A program made the position numbers and the translations under genes. The notes under the pieces were generated by a model. That model was given only the letters and a program-made list of their open reading frames with translations. It had not been told where the DNA came from and searched no databases. Positions 43,978 through 52,207 of a stretch of 59,651 bases of DNA are shown here, piece by piece. Numbering within the stretch: the stretch's first letter is position 1; each line of letters begins with the position of its first letter. The DNA lies in the NCBI GenBank assembly GCA_007695295.1, contig REEB01000127.1:1-59651 (forward strand). Reading direction: 5' to 3'. This stretch comes from Puniceicoccaceae bacterium (GTDB lineage Bacteria > Verrucomicrobiota > Verrucomicrobiia > Opitutales > Opitutaceae).

Positions 43978-45837
43978 TCAGCCTTGCTCCGGCTCGTCCG
44001 CATCCATCGCGGGATCACGAGGACCCGCCAGCAGGTAGCCGAAGACAAAGGTGAAAAGCGAGCCCACGGGGGCAAACCAGGGCCAGGCAATGGTTCGCCG
44101 CACTTCCTCGCCGGTCACCGGGTGCAGCTCGATGAAGTAAGCCTGGTGCGCCAGCAGCACCATCAGCGCCACCCCGCAGACCAGCCCGAGCGTCCGCCAT
44201 AGCGGCAAGGCTTTCCAATGCCAGGCCACCCACCCCGCCAGCACCACCAGGCCTCCCACCCAGCAGGCCTGCACCGCCCAGTCATGCTGGTTGAAGGGGC
44301 TGACCGCAAGGACCGCAAACACGCCCAGCGGCGCCGCAAAGAGAAATCCGGTCCCGTCGATCCGCAGTCGCCGCGCGAAGAAGCCGAGGAAAAAGCCGGC
44401 CATCAGTCCGCCCGAAACAAAGCCCGCCAACCCCAGCGCCAACCCCAGCAGATGGGGGAAAAAGTCCGCCGCACGGTGCATCGCGATCGCCAGCACACTC
44501 AACACCACGCCCCAGAAGAGGACGAGCAGGCGCGAGACCAAGACGGTTCTCCGGTCCTCCTCCGTATCCACTTTATCGCTACGATCGCCTCCGGCCCCGG
44601 CCGAGAGCGGATCGCCCTTGGCCGGCGGCAACATGCCCCGCAACCTCAGGTAACGCTCGCGCAGCGGCAGGTAAAAGGCATGTAGGCTCGTCTGCGAAAG
44701 TGCCGCCAGGATCGAGTCGAGGCTCGAAATGGCCGCGGCAAAGATACCCGCGATGATCAACCCCGTCAGCCCGGTCGGGATGACCGAGAGGATGAAGATC
44801 GGGAAGATCCGGTCGCCCCGTTCCTCAAAGGCCGCCAACGCTTCCCCTTCGAGCGGGTTTTTTCCGTAATAATACCACAGCCCCACTCCCACGAGGGAAA
44901 CCAGCACCGTGATCACGATCCCGAAGTAGCTCGCCAGCACCGCCTTGCGCGCCTCCCGCTGGTTTTTGCAGCAGAAGAGCCGTTGCGCCATCAGTTGGTC
45001 GGTCCCGTAAGCCCCGATCCCTCCCCAGGTGGCTGCGATCGCCGCCGTCCAAACCGTGAATTCCATCGTGAGGCTGAAGTCGAAGTCCCAAAGCTCGAAT
45101 TTGCCCTCCTCCCAGCCGGCCTTCAGGATCGTGAAGAGCCCGGCGTCGAGGTGCGCCACGATCGTGCCCAGCGCCACCAAAGCCCCGACCACGAAGACGA
45201 TGAAGAGAATCACATCCGTCCAGATGACCGTCGCCATCCCGCCCATCAGGGTCCAGGCCACGGAGACAATACCGATGATGAGAATCGCCCAGACCAATAC
45301 CGGGATCCCCGTCGCCCCGGCCAGGTCGCCGAGCGGTGCATGCAGCACGAGGGCGAGAATGAGTGCGGTCAGGTAAACGCGGGAGGACTGCGCCAACATC
45401 CCTCCGAGCGAAAAGAGCGCCGTGGTCATGCCGCGGACATTCCGCCCCAGCATGTGTCCCATGTAGTCGTAGGGGCTGTAGATCTCCCGGCGGTAGTACG
45501 CGGGCACGAGCACGAAGGCCACCACCAGCCGGGCGAAGAGCCCGCCGATCAAGCCGAGCTGCAGGTAGGTGAAATTGCCCCCGGGCTGGAAGACGATGAA
45601 GGGCACGCTCACGAAGGTGATCGCGCTGATCTCGGTCGCGATGCTCGAGCCCGCGACTGCGTACCAGGGCAGTTTGCGCCCCGCGAGGAAGAAGTCCTTG
45701 ATCGTCTGTTGCTTGCCCGCCAGCGCCCCGCCGATCACGGTCGTCACCACCAGGTAACCGAAAACGACCAGCCAGTCGATCCAGGTGAAGTGGCCGCTCA
45801 GTCCGCCAGAGGTTTCCGCTAGCATGGGTATGATCAT
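43978..45837 (-). CDS. Sodium:solute symporter family protein
   Basis: 619 residues with some 13-14 hydrophobic segments. SSS-family blocks include the FFLAGRKLPWYAVAGSSIATEISAITFVSVPF region (core AGRKLPWYAVAGSSIATEI) and SVIPTGLTGLIIAGIFAAAISSLDSILAALSQ (core GLIIAGIFAAAISSLDS), the sodium-site helix. A charged cytoplasmic loop lies near 450-480. Its ATG overlaps the anmK stop (ATGA), the strongest clue to its job: import of an anhydro-sugar or related peptidoglycan product. The substrate is not shown by sequence; sialic acid or other sugars are alternatives. Confidence 0.92.
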   Translation of the reverse strand: MIIPMLAETSGGLSGHFTWIDWLVVFGYLVVTTVIGGALAGKQQTIKDFFLAGRKLPWYAVAGSSIATEISAITFVSVPFIVFQPGGNFTYLQLGLIGGLFARLVVAFVLVPAYYRREIYSPYDYMGHMLGRNVRGMTTALFSLGGMLAQSSRVYLTALILALVLHAPLGDLAGATGIPVLVWAILIIGIVSVAWTLMGGMATVIWTDVILFIVFVVGALVALGTIVAHLDAGLFTILKAGWEEGKFELWDFDFSLTMEFTVWTAAIAATWGGIGAYGTDQLMAQRLFCCKNQREARKAVLASYFGIVITVLVSLVGVGLWYYYGKNPLEGEALAAFEERGDRIFPIFILSVIPTGLTGLIIAGIFAAAISSLDSILAALSQTSLHAFYLPLRERYLRLRGMLPPAKGDPLSAGAGGDRSDKVDTEEDRRTVLVSRLLVLFWGVVLSVLAIAMHRAADFFPHLLGLALGLAGFVSGGLMAGFFLGFFARRLRIDGTGFLFAAPLGVFAVLAVSPFNQHDWAVQACWVGGLVVLAGWVAWHWKALPLWRTLGLVCGVALMVLLAHQAYFIELHPVTGEEVRRTIAWPWFAPVGSLFTFVFGYLLAGPRDPAMDADEPEQG

Positions 45838-46970
45838 GGGGCGGATCCCGCGGCCGCCGGCGCCAAGCCTTGGCGCTCCCAGCCCGGCGGCAGGTGGATC
45901 GCACCGCCCACACAGGGGAGCCGGGCGCCGGTGACGGCGGCGTCGGTGGTGGGCCGGCCGCACAGCACCTGCAAACCGAGCCAAGCGAAGCAGAGCGCTT
46001 CCTTGAAATCCACGACTTCGCGGTCCGGGATCACAAGCGTCACCGCCAGTGGTTCCAGCGCTTGCCGCAGGCACCCGACCACAAACTCATTGTGGGCGCC
46101 GCCGCCCGTGACCATGAGCCGGCCGCCGCGCAGCGGCGCCGCATCGGCCGCCACCCGCTGAGCCAAATGCAGGCCGTAGGTGTGGAGCAGATCCTCCACC
46201 CGAGCGTTTTCCGCCTTGAGCAACGGAAAGACGTGGCGCTCCGCCCACTCCCCGCCGAGAGACTTCGGCGGCCGCCGCCGGAAATACTCCGCCTCCTCAA
46301 GTCTCTCCAACAACCGCGGCAGTGGCCGGCCGGCCGCCGCCAACCGGCCGCCCGCATCAAACCCTGCATCCGGATCATGGATACGAAACAGCCGGTCAAG
46401 GACGGTGTTGGCCGGAGCCACATCCCAGGCCCGGCCGCCGGCACTGATGTTGGCGATGCCTCCGAGATTGAGAAATCCATCCACCCCGGGAAAGAGCGCG
46501 CGCTCCGCCAGCGGCACCAGCGGCGCACCCTCCCCGCCCAGCGCGACATCCTTGCCGCGAAAGCAATCCACCAGCGGGCAGCTCAACTCCGAGACCATCC
46601 ACTCCCCGTCGCCGAGCTGAAAGGTCAATCCCACTCCCGGCTCGTGAAACAGCGTCTGCCCATGGCTGGCCACGAACTCCGGGGACTCGCCGAGGCGGCC
46701 GGCAAACGCCCGCACCACCGCACCCAACATCCGGCCGAAGGCCGCCCCCGCCTCCGCCAGCTCCCGCGCCGTCCCCCCGGGCAATCGCTCCAGTCGGCGG
46801 CGCCATCCCTCGGGAAAGGGCGCCACTTCCGCGGCCTCGATCCGGTAGTCCCAGCCCCCGGCCCCAGCCTCGGTGAAGCGGCAGAACGCCAAATCGATCC
46901 CATCCATCGAGGAACCGGTCATCACGCCGATGCCGGTCGCGGATGCAGGGGGATGGCTCTGCCAGAGCAT
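45834..46970 (-). CDS. anmK: Anhydro-N-acetylmuramic acid kinase
   Basis: 378 residues. AnmK opens the 1,6-anhydro ring of anhydroMurNAc and phosphorylates it to MurNAc-6-phosphate in peptidoglycan recycling. The ATP-binding opening GVMTGSSMDGIDLA is at about 15-28, SHGQTLFHEP near 115-124, and FLNLGGIANIS and DVAPANTVLD follow. VTGGGAHNEFVV near the C-terminus is also typical. It lies 11 bases after the glycan hydrolase gene and overlaps the symporter start. MurQ, the next enzyme, is not in the window. Confidence 0.95.
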   Translation of the reverse strand: MLWQSHPPASATGIGVMTGSSMDGIDLAFCRFTEAGAGGWDYRIEAAEVAPFPEGWRRRLERLPGGTARELAEAGAAFGRMLGAVVRAFAGRLGESPEFVASHGQTLFHEPGVGLTFQLGDGEWMVSELSCPLVDCFRGKDVALGGEGAPLVPLAERALFPGVDGFLNLGGIANISAGGRAWDVAPANTVLDRLFRIHDPDAGFDAGGRLAAAGRPLPRLLERLEEAEYFRRRPPKSLGGEWAERHVFPLLKAENARVEDLLHTYGLHLAQRVAADAAPLRGGRLMVTGGGAHNEFVVGCLRQALEPLAVTLVIPDREVVDFKEALCFAWLGLQVLCGRPTTDAAVTGARLPCVGGAIHLPPGWERQGLAPAAAGSAP

Positions 46971-46981
46971 GACCGCTCCTG

Positions 46982-48472
46982 TCAGGCGCCCGGTGTCAAC
47001 CGCAGCACCGGTCCTTCAATCCCGAGGCGGTTGACCGCGGAGATGCGCACTTCCAGCACCCGGGCCCCGCGTGCCAGCTCGAGCCGCCCGCCACGACGCT
47101 CCGCAGCCGGAACCAGCCGCGTCTCCCATCCATTGGTTCGGCGGATCTGCACCACCCAGAGCTTGAGCGAGCCACTCCCCGGCGATTCCCAGATCACGCC
47201 CCGCCCTTCGAAGCGACCTTCCGGCCGCTCCGGCCGGCCCCGGCCCAGCCACGGTGTCGCCGGCACCAGGGCCGGCTCCGCATAGACCTCCCGCCGGAGC
47301 AACTCCGCGAGACCGCCGCGTGGTTCCATGAGGGCGCGGGCACTGAAATGGATGTTGCCGGTCGCACCCTCAAAGGCCCGGGTGAGCTGGACTTGGCGCA
47401 CGATCTCCGACGGCGGCCAACCATCGGCCCCGCCGGTCACCCGGCTGGTGAAATTGCCCACCCAGAGGTGGCGGTTCTGCCGGTTGTGGCTCGCCCACCA
47501 CTCCTGCAGCCGCGGATAGGACTGCGGGGCCTGGTCGATCGGCCAATAGAGCTGCGGGGCGAGGTAATCCATCCATCCCTCCTGCCACCACTTCCGCGCA
47601 TCCGCATAGAGCACGGCAAATTGGTCCAATCCCTGGATGCCCTCGGGGTTGTTGGGGCGCCAGATGCCAAAGGGGCTCACCCCCACCCGCACCCCCGGGG
47701 CCGTCTCCCTCACCAGTTGGTAAAATTCCCGCACAAAGGTATTCACGTTTTCCCTACGCCAGTCGTCGCGCTCCAGCCGGCCGCCCCCGGCCCGGTAGCG
47801 CTCCCAGGAACGGTCGTCGGGAAAAGGCCTCCCGTTGTCGTAGGAGGGATAGGGATAAAAATAGTCGTCGATGTGGATGCCGTCCACGTCGTAGCGGGTC
47901 AGCAGGTCCTTGACGACCCCAAGGACGTAGCTGCGGGTGTCCGGTTCCCCGGGATCCATCCAGAGGTATCTGCCGTAGGTGCGGACGAGGTCCGGCCGCC
48001 GTCGGCTGATGTGGTTGGCCGGCAACTCGGAGCGGGCCGAGGGATGCTTCACCCGGTAGGGATTGAACCAGGCGTGCAACTCCAACCCGCGCTCCCGGCA
48101 GGCCCGGAGGGCGAATTCCAGCGGATCATAAAACGGCTCGGGCGCCCGCCCCACCGCTCCCGTAAGATACTCCGACCATGGCTCAGTCGGTGAGGCGTAG
48201 AGGGCATCCCCCATCGGCCGCACCTGCAGCACGACCGCGTTGAGGTTCAGCTCCACCGCCCGGTCCAGGATCGCGAGCAACTCCGCCTGTTGCTCGGCGG
48301 TGGAGAGCTCCTTCGACGAGGGCCAGTCGATGTTGGCCACCGTGGCGATCCAGACGCCGCGGAACTCACGCGGCACCGGCGGCGGCTCCACGGCGCCATC
48401 CATCGGACGACAGGCTCCCATTAATAGCACCATTGCACAGATCAGACAGCTTGAGAACGTTCGCTTCGACAT
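46982..48472 (-). CDS. YddW/DigH-like glycosyl hydrolase lipoprotein
   Basis: 496 residues. A lipoprotein signal is present (MSKRTFSSCLICAMVLLMGAC, lipobox Cys21). The body matches the glycosyl-hydrolase-like 10 (YddW) family: EFRGVWIATVANIDWPS, NLNAVVLQVRPMGDALY, GLELHAWFNPYRV, DVDGIHIDDYFYPYP, VGVSPFGIW and YLAPQLYWPID. E. coli DigH of this family cleaves glycan strands stripped of peptides. A C-terminal Fn3-like segment follows. ATG at 48472 gives the signal; the longer frame upstream lacks one. Divergent from the epimerase gene, 85 bases apart. Confidence 0.9.
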   Translation of the reverse strand: MSKRTFSSCLICAMVLLMGACRPMDGAVEPPPVPREFRGVWIATVANIDWPSSKELSTAEQQAELLAILDRAVELNLNAVVLQVRPMGDALYASPTEPWSEYLTGAVGRAPEPFYDPLEFALRACRERGLELHAWFNPYRVKHPSARSELPANHISRRRPDLVRTYGRYLWMDPGEPDTRSYVLGVVKDLLTRYDVDGIHIDDYFYPYPSYDNGRPFPDDRSWERYRAGGGRLERDDWRRENVNTFVREFYQLVRETAPGVRVGVSPFGIWRPNNPEGIQGLDQFAVLYADARKWWQEGWMDYLAPQLYWPIDQAPQSYPRLQEWWASHNRQNRHLWVGNFTSRVTGGADGWPPSEIVRQVQLTRAFEGATGNIHFSARALMEPRGGLAELLRREVYAEPALVPATPWLGRGRPERPEGRFEGRGVIWESPGSGSLKLWVVQIRRTNGWETRLVPAAERRGGRLELARGARVLEVRISAVNRLGIEGPVLRLTPGA

Positions 48473-48557
48473 GGTCGGGGTGGGAATGACCGTGGGTGGA
48501 GTTCCGGCTTGTGGCCAGTCTGTTTTTATCGTTTTTGTTAAGAACCGCTTTCCGCTC

Positions 48558-49586
48558 ATGAAATTGGTTGCCCGTGCCCTCACCCTGCCCCCGCGCCGGG
48601 TTTTCCGCATCGACCGCTCGGCCTATGGGTCCGCGGACAATGTCCTCCTTTCCCTGGAGGCCGATGGAGGGGTCGGCTGGGGCGAGGCTGCCCCGCGCGG
48701 CTACTATGGCACCAGCACCGAAGAGGTCATTCGCCAGCTCAGCGACCTTTCGCGCAACGGCCTGCCTCCGCCTCCTTCCGGCCCACAGGATCTGCCGCAT
48801 CTCTGGGAGGAATGGCGCCGGCTGCTGCCCTCGTCACCCTCGGCTTGGTGCGCGCTCGACCTCGCCTGCTGGGACTGGCTCGCCAAAAAGAAGGGCCTGT
48901 CCGTCCACGAGCTGGTCCATGGGCGGCCGCCAGAGCCGGTGCTTTCGTCGTTCACGCTCGGGATCAGCGACCTCGGGGAGCTGCCCGAAAAACTCGCCGA
49001 AGTCGACGGCCTGCCCGTCCTCAAATTGAAGGTCGACCGTACCGGCGATCTCGATCTGGTGCGAATGACCGCCGCCGCCTGCCCCGCCGCGCGCCTGCGG
49101 GTGGACGCCAACGCCTCCTGGACGCCGTCCCTGCTGGAACGGTCCATCCCGGACCTCGCCCGGCTCAACGTCCACCTCCTCGAGCAACCCCTTCCCCCCG
49201 ACAAGGACGAACCCCTGGCCGCCTTCCGCGGCCGCTGCCCGTTCGAGTTTTTCGCCGACGAGAGCACTCCGGACCTCGACGGCCTCGGCGACGCCCTCGC
49301 CCGCTACGACGGGGTCAATTTCAAGCTGACCAAGGTCGGCGGCCTCACCCCCGTGCTTCGGCTGGCCGCGGCCGCCCGTGCGGCCGGCTTGAAGACCATG
49401 GTGGGCTGCATGCTCGAATCCGAGCTCCTCATCGCGGCCGGCCTCGTCGCCGCCGCCGGCACCGATTATGCCGATCTCGATGGCGCCTGGCTCCTCAAGC
49501 CCGGCCCGTTCCGCGGCCTGTCCTACCAAGACGGATACATTCGTCCCGCAGCCGGCCCCGGCTTCGGGCTCACCACCCAGGCTTGA
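48558..49586 (+). CDS. Dipeptide epimerase (L-Ala-D/L-Glu epimerase-like, enolase superfamily)
   Basis: 342 residues. The fold and residues fit muconate-lactonizing-type enolases: KxK at Lys156/Lys158 (LKLKVDR), metal ligands Asp183 (RVDANASW), Glu209 (LLEQPLPP) and Asp234 (FADESTP), and the second base Lys256 in NFKLTKVGG. ACWDWLAKKKGLSVHELV in the capping region also matches. L-Ala-D/L-Glu epimerases recycle the murein dipeptide. The neighbouring peptidoglycan genes support this specificity, though other dipeptides are possible. Start ATG of MKLVARALTLPPRRVF. Confidence 0.88.
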   Translation: MKLVARALTLPPRRVFRIDRSAYGSADNVLLSLEADGGVGWGEAAPRGYYGTSTEEVIRQLSDLSRNGLPPPPSGPQDLPHLWEEWRRLLPSSPSAWCALDLACWDWLAKKKGLSVHELVHGRPPEPVLSSFTLGISDLGELPEKLAEVDGLPVLKLKVDRTGDLDLVRMTAAACPAARLRVDANASWTPSLLERSIPDLARLNVHLLEQPLPPDKDEPLAAFRGRCPFEFFADESTPDLDGLGDALARYDGVNFKLTKVGGLTPVLRLAAAARAAGLKTMVGCMLESELLIAAGLVAAAGTDYADLDGAWLLKPGPFRGLSYQDGYIRPAAGPGFGLTTQA

Positions 49587-49667
49587 TCCGAATTGGGCGG
49601 CGGGCCGGCGGCACCGAAGCCGGGAGCAGGCCACTGGTGCCTCCGCCCCGTCCATCCCTTCCGTGAA

Positions 49668-50585
49668 TCAGAGCGCATCCAGCACCCGCCGGGCGATCCC
49701 GGGCAATAGCCCCTCGTCCCGGGCCCGGTGCTTGGTGAAAACCGTGAGCACGAAGCGACGGCCGTCGGCCAGTTCGAAAACCGCGGCGTCATGGCGGGCG
49801 CGGCTTGTGTAGCCGGCCTTCGACCAGAGCAGGGCGTCGTGCGGCAGCGCTTCCCCGATGTAACCGCTGACCTGGCTGTCCGCCCGGCCTTCCGGGGTGG
49901 CGAGATCCCGCCGGAGCAGGGCCATCATGGCTTCGGAGCGTTCGGGCGTCACCGCCGCGCCAGTGGCGATTTCCACCAAAATGCGGGCGGTTTCATCACT
50001 CGTCATCCAATTGCGGTGGATGGGTTGGTGCACCCGGAAGGACTGCATCTCCCGCCCGTAGGGACCTTCCCACCATGGCTTGCGGTTGGCATTGAGGCGG
50101 GTGTAGCCGAGCCCTGCGAAGTAACGGTTGATGGCATTGCGGCGGTGCAGCCACTCCTCCAGCTCCTCCGGCGGCAATTCCGGCCCGCTGGTCGTACCGG
50201 TGAGCAGATCGACAATGTAGTGGGTCGGTTCGTTGCCCGAGCGCACGATCATGTCGCGGAGGGCACGATCGACTTCGTCGGTCGCTTCCATCTTCCCCTC
50301 CTCCATCCAGTGGTGGGCCGCCTGCAGGTAGCAGAGCTTGACCACGCTGGCGGGAAAAACCTGCTCCATGCCGCGATGGCTGCCAAATCGCCACGGGGCA
50401 TCCTCTCCAAGCCGGACGAGAGTGAGGGCAATCTGCTCCGGGCCGAAAGGCGGATTATCAAGGGTGGCCACCGTCTCCTCCACCACCCGGTCCACGATCC
50501 TCTGAAGTCCCGGATCGCGGACAAAGCCGGGCATGGCGGAGAGGCAGGGAGCAAGCAGGAAGAGAGATGCAATCCGGGTCCACAT
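49668..50585 (-). CDS. Class A beta-lactamase-fold serine hydrolase, exported
   Basis: 305 residues with a signal peptide (MWTRIASLFLLAPCLSAM). The active-site SxxK is Ser80-Val-Val-Lys83 in FPASVVKL. The second motif is SGN (116-118) where class A enzymes have SDN, and the third is KAG in LLWSKAGYTSRARHD where KTG is usual. Deviations from the canonical motifs and the wall-related neighbours argue for a peptidase or esterase role, not antibiotic resistance. A GTG at 50645 that overlaps the dacB stop (GTGA) is an alternative start; the ATG gives the better signal peptide and is preceded by GGGTGG. Confidence 0.82.
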   Translation of the reverse strand: MWTRIASLFLLAPCLSAMPGFVRDPGLQRIVDRVVEETVATLDNPPFGPEQIALTLVRLGEDAPWRFGSHRGMEQVFPASVVKLCYLQAAHHWMEEGKMEATDEVDRALRDMIVRSGNEPTHYIVDLLTGTTSGPELPPEELEEWLHRRNAINRYFAGLGYTRLNANRKPWWEGPYGREMQSFRVHQPIHRNWMTSDETARILVEIATGAAVTPERSEAMMALLRRDLATPEGRADSQVSGYIGEALPHDALLWSKAGYTSRARHDAAVFELADGRRFVLTVFTKHRARDEGLLPGIARRVLDAL

Positions 50586-50641
50586 GCGGTCCACCCTAGC
50601 CGGGGCCGGCCGGCGGGCAACCGGTTTGGCGGCTGTTGCCT

Positions 50642-52207
50642 TCACGGTCCGCCGGGCGCATGGTGCAGGCGGCGCACCACTTCATCAACGGCCTCGCGGG
50701 CGGTCGGCGATCCGGTCTCGGCGGGCAAGTAGTTGTTCAACAGGATCGCGAAGACAACCGGGCCCCGCTCCGCTGTATCCAAATAACCCGACAGAGCGGA
50801 AACCCCGCGCAGAGTGCCGGTCTTGGCCACGACCCGGCCTTCGAGCGGCCCGCCCGCAAACCGCCGGCGGAGCGTGCCATCGCGCCCGCCCACCGGCAGC
50901 GCATCTCGAAAGGCCGACGCCTCCCGATGATCCTCCATCGCCCGGAGCAGTTGGACGAGGGCGGCGGGAGTCACCAGGTTGGCCCGGCCCAGACCGGCGC
51001 CATCCTGGAGGTGGAGGGAATTGTCCGGCACCCCCAGCCGCCCGGCAAATTGCCGCACCGCGACGAGCCCGGCCGCCTGGTCATCGATCTCCGGAGTTCC
51101 TTCCCCGCCGCTCCGGGCCGCCCGGCCCAGATGCAGCAGCAGGAGCTGTGCATGAAGGTTCTGTGAGGATTTCTGCACCGCCCGCACCAGCTCCCGCAAC
51201 GGCGGCGATGCCACCTCCGCGAGAATCTGCTCCGGCAAGGGTCCGTCATCCGCTTCTGCGGTCCGCACCACCCCCTCGACGTCCACGCCTGCCTCCCGCA
51301 GGGCCGCCGACAACCGCTCCGCGGCCACGCGCTCCGGTTCCGCCAACGGAAAGGTCAGCACCACCGGCGCACTGTCGGCCGGCACCCGGCCACGAAGAAC
51401 CACTTCCCCGGACCCCGTCCCGCGTGTCCAGAAAAGTCGGAATGGCGTGGAGGGTTCGACGGTCGCTGCACGCACCGTCACTCCAGGGCCTCCCGGCGGC
51501 ACCGCCGTCCGCACAATCGGCGGATCACCCGGAGCGTCCCCCGGAGCAATCTCCAAGGGCATCACGTTGCCGGCCACGGTCAAGGCCGAGACCGGAGCGC
51601 CGTAAGCGTAGAGCGAATCCTCCCATGTCCAGCCACCCCCGGCCGCCGGAGCCTCGAACCAACGGCCGTCCCCGACCACGTCCCCCGTCACCCGCCGCAC
51701 TCCCGCCGCGGTCAGGCGCTCCGCCAGTTCTTCCACCGTGCTCCCTGCGGCCCAGATCGACCCTCCGCCTAAGACGGGGTCGCCGCCGCCGACCATGAAA
51801 AGATCCCCCGTCACCGTGCCATCGACATCCGGAGGGTCCATGGCCCGCAGGGATGTGCTGAACTGGAAAGCCCCGCCCAAACGGTCGAGGGCGGCCGCGA
51901 CCGTGAAGTGCTTCACATTAGAGGCCGGCTGAAACAGCCGCTCCGCATCCCTTTCATAAAGCACCATGCCGGTAGCCGCTTCCACCGCCTGGATGCCCCA
52001 GCGTGCCCGCTCAAACACCGGCAAATCGAGGTAACCATCGAGCTCGCGGCGCCAGTCGCTCGCCGTCTCACCCACCGGCCCCGGAGTCACCGAGGGCGCC
52101 CGCCGCTCGCTGGCCACCGCTCCACAACCGGCCGCCGCCAGCACCAGGCCCGCCCAACCCAGCAAGAAGGCCGCCGCCACCGCCCGACGTTTCGTTGACC
52201 CTGCCAT
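50642..52207 (-). CDS. dacB: PBP4-type D-alanyl-D-alanine carboxypeptidase/endopeptidase
   Basis: 521 residues. The N-terminus has a signal with a possible lipobox (LVLAAAGC, Cys28). Motifs of class C penicillin-binding proteins: Ser96 in PASNVKHFTVAAALD (core PASNVK), SSQN near residue 347, and KTG in VAKTGTLRGVSALSGY. The large insert domain between the first two motifs is present (VGGGDPVLGG, YAYGAPVSALTVAGN). It cuts D-Ala-D-Ala ends and crosslinks in the periplasm. It is divergent from the kinase at 52.4 kb. Confidence 0.92.
   Translation of the reverse strand: MAGSTKRRAVAAAFLLGWAGLVLAAAGCGAVASERRAPSVTPGPVGETASDWRRELDGYLDLPVFERARWGIQAVEAATGMVLYERDAERLFQPASNVKHFTVAAALDRLGGAFQFSTSLRAMDPPDVDGTVTGDLFMVGGGDPVLGGGSIWAAGSTVEELAERLTAAGVRRVTGDVVGDGRWFEAPAAGGGWTWEDSLYAYGAPVSALTVAGNVMPLEIAPGDAPGDPPIVRTAVPPGGPGVTVRAATVEPSTPFRLFWTRGTGSGEVVLRGRVPADSAPVVLTFPLAEPERVAAERLSAALREAGVDVEGVVRTAEADDGPLPEQILAEVASPPLRELVRAVQKSSQNLHAQLLLLHLGRAARSGGEGTPEIDDQAAGLVAVRQFAGRLGVPDNSLHLQDGAGLGRANLVTPAALVQLLRAMEDHREASAFRDALPVGGRDGTLRRRFAGGPLEGRVVAKTGTLRGVSALSGYLDTAERGPVVFAILLNNYLPAETGSPTAREAVDEVVRRLHHAPGGP

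Follow-up and report, generated by a model that had tools for sequence, protein, structure and literature searches.

Some bacteria possess the enzymes of peptidoglycan recycling but no clear AmpG, which raises the question of how muropeptides enter such cells. The locus analyzed here raises it for one particular transporter. In a 59,651-nucleotide stretch of DNA from Puniceicoccaceae bacterium (contig REEB01000127.1 of assembly GCA_007695295.1), referred to below as the window, the gene of an SSS-family sodium:solute symporter overlaps that of AnmK, the anhydro-N-acetylmuramic acid kinase. Could this symporter bring anhydroMurNAc or a related product into the cytoplasm, as an earlier note on the sequence had suggested?

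Organization of the locus

The six genes named in the earlier note were found at the coordinates claimed for them, and their families were confirmed by profile matches and by reading of the sequence. On the minus strand, the gene for a PBP4-type D-Ala-D-Ala carboxypeptidase/endopeptidase (Peptidase_S13; 50642-52207; PF02113, E 8e-94) was assigned to PBP4 (DacB) with 251.7 bits in TIGR00666 against a cut-off of 107.8. The adjoining minus-strand gene (49668-50645) encodes a serine hydrolase of the class A beta-lactamase (Beta-lactamase2) fold (PF13354, E 1e-17), in whose translation SxxK-like PASVVK and KAG motifs were seen; its GTG start lies on the PBP4 stop in a GTGA overlap read at the junction. 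The MR_MLE (enolase superfamily) epimerase/racemase is encoded on the plus strand (ORF 48240-49586, likely start inferred at 48558; PF13378, E 1e-26, and PF02746).

The remaining three genes lie on the minus strand. The DigH-like gene (ORF 46982-48610, likely start inferred at 48472) encodes a predicted lipoprotein with a GHL10 glycosyl hydrolase domain (PF02638, E 6e-62, 210 bits) and the lipobox LMGAC in its translation. After a gap of 11 bases it is followed by anmK (45834-46970), whose product is of the Bacteroidota type (PF03702, E 9e-55; PDB 3cqy, E 2e-34), and anmK in turn overlaps by 4 bases the gene for the 619-aa symporter of the LeuT fold (43978-45837; PF00474, E 5e-21). The claimed overlap of the symporter start with the anmK stop was exact: ATGA was read at 45837-45834. 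With two SSS genes among roughly 3,900 genes, a number estimated from the 4.6 Mb assembly, the chance of an SSS gene standing directly downstream of anmK is ~0.0005. Next on this strand, 91 bases 3' of the symporter gene, is a RecQ gene.

The locus thus comprises three units: the PBP4 and serine hydrolase genes, the epimerase gene alone, and the DigH-AnmK-SSS unit, of which the DigH-like gene is the first. A single operon of all six genes was ruled out, since the epimerase gene lies between the other two units on the plus strand. Promoter and terminator scans gave no signals above chance. All six genes are present, but only the digH-like gene, anmK and the symporter gene form the relevant unit. 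The description of the MR_MLE protein as a dipeptide epimerase was retained only at the level of the family. Its top NCBIfam model was the N-acetyl-D-Glu racemase DgcA (224.6 bits, cut-off 400), which outscored the L-Ala-D/L-Glu epimerase model PRK15129 (135.8 bits, cut-off 343); no model reached its cut-off, and the assignment as a dipeptide epimerase is tentative.

Identity and origin of AnmK

The kinase scored 186.7 bits with PF03702 (cut-off 24), and Asp183 and Glu324, which we take to be the active-site Asp and Glu, were invariant. The best of the NCBIfam equivalog models, which cover separate subgroups, gave 296.6 of the 436 bits needed, and the protein carries DVAPAN where most have D-x-GPGN. 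Its Bacteroidota relatives share 46-47% identity.

Phylogenetic analysis of 93 AnmK sequences placed the window AnmK with Bacteroidota and Chlorobiota (support 100/100), beside a Bacteroidia sequence, and the AnmK proteins of the family relatives among Pseudomonadota. A single clade of the window and relatives' AnmK was rejected by the AU test on a smaller tree (p-AU 4.8e-7). The window branch is long, and its exact sister is less sure than its split from the relatives' AnmK. As judged by these phylogenies, the two anmK genes are of separate origin, and the occurrence of two separately acquired anmK genes beside digH supports a working link between anmK and digH.

The recycling cluster in related genomes

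Few genomes of the phylum carry AnmK. A survey of 195 genomes gave 10 matches, and 388 genomes gave 20, 8 of them weak. Nine further genomes of the same family carry it. All six of the related AnmK loci that were read contain a DigH-like gene (45-51% identity to that of the window) and an epimerase homologue (31-37%) within 18-19 kb, and two of the six also have PBP4. Scattered through these clusters are also MurQ, an AmpG-family MFS, NagZ, an AmiD-like amidase and NamZ, although not every genome has all of them. In one genome (G010, L012:14466-15773), NamZ, an exo-N-acetylmuramidase, lies within the AnmK-DigH-AmpG cluster.

An AmpG-family MFS (164-204 bits) was found in all nine AnmK-bearing family relatives, and in six of the nine it lies within ~5 kb of anmK. 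Like the window, the AnmK-DigH-MurQ-AmpG clusters (G010, G170, G182 and others) hold the epimerase, DigH-like and AnmK genes in one neighbourhood; they differ in having MurQ and usually the AmpG-family MFS in place, an AnmK of other origin, and no SSS gene beside anmK. Its recurrent gene content marks the epimerase/DigH/AnmK neighbourhood as a recycling cluster of the family, and the symporter of the window occupies the position that in most relatives belongs to the MFS. The view of the locus as one of peptidoglycan turnover and salvage was thereby borne out, since six related genomes group the same gene set, each with some of MurQ, NagZ, NamZ, amidase and the AmpG-family MFS.

Recycling genes elsewhere in the genome

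The earlier note had proposed a search of the genome for ampG, nagZ and murQ. The assembly comprises 4.6 Mb in 278 contigs and is 98.6% complete, so that a missed ampG is possible. It holds one AnmK, one MurQ (contig C138, 302.7 bits, above the curated cut-off) and a NagZ-like GH3 enzyme on contig C266, beside a regulator of the ROK type. On that contig (L174:5227-8286) the regulator is NagC/Mlc-like, and flagellar-looking genes are also near. MurQ and a NagZ-like enzyme were thus located, but for AmpG the search returned a single MFS gene, on contig C41, which the genome scan put at 87.6 bits and a direct scan at 91.5, tied with the RhtX/FptX siderophore transporter model (91.0 bits). Compared with AmpG of the relatives' clusters it gave only 34 bits, and on these scores it is a doubtful AmpG-like protein, which may or may not import muropeptides. 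It stands in a row on one strand (L054:8472-13903) with an AGE-type N-acylglucosamine 2-epimerase, a DUF5009 membrane protein and an Amidase_3; this four-gene row has the look of another salvage locus in the genome, for amino sugars or cell-wall material. The whole genome has only two SSS genes, and the one outside the window lies among esterase and glycosidase genes that, judged by eye, resemble a locus for pectin use.

The symporter and its binding sites

The symporter belongs to the SSS family by PF00474 (75.6 bits, cut-off 22.8), with TIGR00813 at 123.9 bits, below its cut-off of 184; it also matches PutP and SMCT1. It gave no match to MFS models and hence is not an AmpG as defined by TIGR00901. 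Its predicted model, of moderate quality (pLDDT 72.5), adopts the LeuT fold. The solved structure nearest to this model was the sialic acid symporter SiaT of Proteus mirabilis (5NVA; Z 36.4, rmsd 2.6 over 467), which ranked ahead of the choline transporter CHT1 and of NIS (Z 30); SMCT1 gave Z 28.9.

SiaT (5NVA/5NV9) transports sialic acid, an acidic N-acetyl amino sugar, and shares 22-30% identity with the window protein. When its sodium-site positions (PMC5931594) were transferred, the Na2 site was found to be kept, Ser342 and Ser343 corresponding to Ser371 and Ser372, whereas Ser345 of the Na3 site is Asp. Ser60 and Thr63 correspond to Ser71 and Thr74, which are common to nearly all SSS rows compared and so constitute weak evidence. 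Thr58 of SiaT is Glu in the window protein, and the carboxylate-binding Arg135 is not clearly kept: two of three alignments set it against A149, and the third against R153, which lies one helical turn away and is invariant in the clade of the window symporter. A SiaT-like specificity read from binding residues was dropped, as the alignments disagree on Arg135 and Gln82. With Thr58 replaced by Glu and the position of Arg135 disputed between alignments, the substrate is not readable from these residues.

Recurrence of the anmK-SSS pairing

Sampling of 195 genomes from the phylum and 100 from the family did not turn up the clade of the window symporter beside anmK, and no SSS gene adjoined anmK at 80 AnmK loci from other species (mostly Bacteroidota and Pseudomonadota). 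The nearest relatives of the symporter (37-44% identity over the full length, 42-51% over the matched core) have as neighbours an Hpt protein, an N-acetylglutamate synthase-like gene, a xylose-isomerase-like TIM barrel or an FAD oxidoreductase; the five closest all lie among unrelated genes, not cell-wall genes. AnmK was absent from both genomes with close SSS relatives that were scanned for it (G004 and G066). The former also encodes a protein of 650 aa in which a BadF/BadG-type kinase domain is fused with a MurQ-like SIS domain (L150:396-2348).

One other pair was found. In G147, a distant member of the phylum, the stop of anmK and the start of an SSS gene likewise overlap exactly as ATGA (L018:6698-9471); the two symporters share only 24% identity, and the two AnmK proteins belong to different subgroups. 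Further pairs were not found in the order of that genome, where AnmK occurred once in 137 genomes. Assuming ~10 SSS genes per 4,000, the chance of two adjacent pairs is ~0.0004 for the phylum's 12 clear AnmK loci and ~0.02 for all 92 loci. The distant genome has an AmpG-family MFS elsewhere, and no clear MurQ was found in it, so its pair is only partial support and may serve another end. That MFS gene is close to an oligopeptide-type ABC permease gene (L196:5235-8826), and by their proximity the two could form a joint muropeptide/peptide uptake locus. Comparison of anmK neighbourhoods, as the earlier note had advised, therefore gave no recurrent linkage for the window clade but a single other pair with a different SSS protein.

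Discussion

In the proposed scheme, periplasmic amidases and peptidases would remove the stem peptides, and the DigH-like lipoprotein, with lytic transglycosylases whose presence we infer, would shorten the denuded glycan. E. coli DigH acts on denuded glycan strands (PMC12288456). The symporter, driven by the sodium gradient, would import the anhydroMurNAc-containing product, either the monosaccharide or GlcNAc-anhydroMurNAc, into the cytoplasm. There it would be converted to GlcNAc-6-phosphate by NagZ, by an AnmK whose translation is coupled to that of the symporter, and by MurQ. An AmpG-family MFS permease fills the same cluster position in related genomes. The enzyme part of this reading is very probably correct. 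As a whole, a salvage locus with a digH-like, anmK and SSS unit whose symporter imports an anhydroMurNAc-type sugar is put at a little under an even chance. The direction of transport is inferred, as is the substrate, and our confidence that the latter is a peptidoglycan sugar falls just short of one half.

The proposed role is that of AmpG (E. coli; Tanf_08365 of T. forsythia), namely inner-membrane import of GlcNAc-anhydroMurNAc products ahead of NagZ, AnmK and MurQ, but AmpG belongs to the MFS and the window transporter is an unrelated LeuT-fold protein. Non-AmpG import in genomes without AmpG is known from Agrobacterium, and in Rhizobiales the YejBEF-YepA system took over from AmpG (PMC9790009); unlike a sodium symporter, it is an ABC transporter. 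Free cell-wall amino sugars are imported by MurT of Tannerella forsythia, which is clustered with kinase and etherase genes much as the symporter is with anmK, and by the MurP PTS of E. coli, through which anhydroMurNAc entry is possible; T. forsythia takes up MurNAc via MurT and disaccharides via AmpG (PMC7670621). That work assigns MurT to a novel family conserved among Bacteroidetes, and it describes neither MurT nor MurP, a PTS, as an SSS protein.

The idea of a sodium-driven importer was strengthened, indirectly, by the ATGA overlap, the empty AmpG-family slot, the presence of MurQ and a NagZ-like enzyme, and the pair in the distant genome, and the symporter is a good candidate for this role; the reading of the earlier note is thus supported in part. 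The idea is also favoured by the recurrence of the cluster in six related genomes, by the presence of anmK genes of two different origins beside digH, by the small number of SSS genes, the only other one lying in the pectin-like locus, by the sialic acid symporter as the structure nearest to the predicted model, and by the precedent of AmpG replaced by another transporter class. Against it count the SSS relatives away from cell-wall genes, the lack of an adjacent SSS gene at the 80 loci, the Glu in place of Thr58 and the unclear match to Arg135, the weak AmpG-like MFS beside Amidase_3, the AmpG-family MFS and lack of a clear MurQ in the distant genome, and the gaps of an assembly of 278 contigs. 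The earlier note had held that an intact AmpG system elsewhere, combined with a symporter clade that carries an unrelated solute and is not conserved beside anmK, would refute its idea; the lack of conservation was observed, but no clear intact AmpG was found.

The main rival holds that the SSS gene is a passenger or carries an unrelated solute, muropeptides entering via the AmpG-like MFS of contig C41 or, for example, a YejBEF-type ABC system. The unrelated neighbours of the SSS relatives, the company of AGE-type epimerase, DUF5009 and Amidase_3 that the MFS keeps, and the replacement of AmpG in Rhizobiales all fit this account, but the MFS scores equally as a siderophore transporter and is remote from the relatives' AmpG, a passenger gene would not be expected to overlap anmK, and the genome has only two SSS genes; we consider this account rather unlikely. 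Were the symporter to be paired with the peptidases and the MR_MLE racemase instead of AnmK, it could import stem-peptide products such as L-Ala, D-Glu, small peptides or N-acyl forms. Amino-acid and carboxylate carriers do occur in the SSS family, as the PutP and SMCT1 matches recall, R153 is invariant in the clade, and the racemase and peptidases adjoin the unit. The symporter gene nevertheless overlaps anmK and not the peptide genes, and the racemase is on the other strand, which makes this account improbable.

A different kinase substrate, another 1,6-anhydro sugar such as levoglucosan that the symporter would import, is very improbable. Levoglucosan kinases share the fold family and match the window kinase at E 1e-23, and the DVAPAN motif and the scores below the NCBIfam AnmK cut-offs would agree with it, but AnmK entries match far better (2e-34), both Asp183 and Glu324 are kept, and the Bacteroidota AnmK relatives, the linkage to DigH and the MurQ of the genome point to a true AnmK.

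In the open-access literature searched, we found no report of an SSS transporter linked to AnmK and one replacement of AmpG, an ABC system. It is a somewhat doubtful proposal that the symporter of the window represents the first case of sodium-coupled import of a peptidoglycan-derived sugar (anhydroMurNAc or GlcNAc-anhydroMurNAc), that it replaced AmpG in this lineage, and that anmK became coupled to SSS genes repeatedly, each time to a very different one. If this is true, the entry of muropeptide sugars would have a further class of transporter, a sodium-driven one coupled to AnmK.
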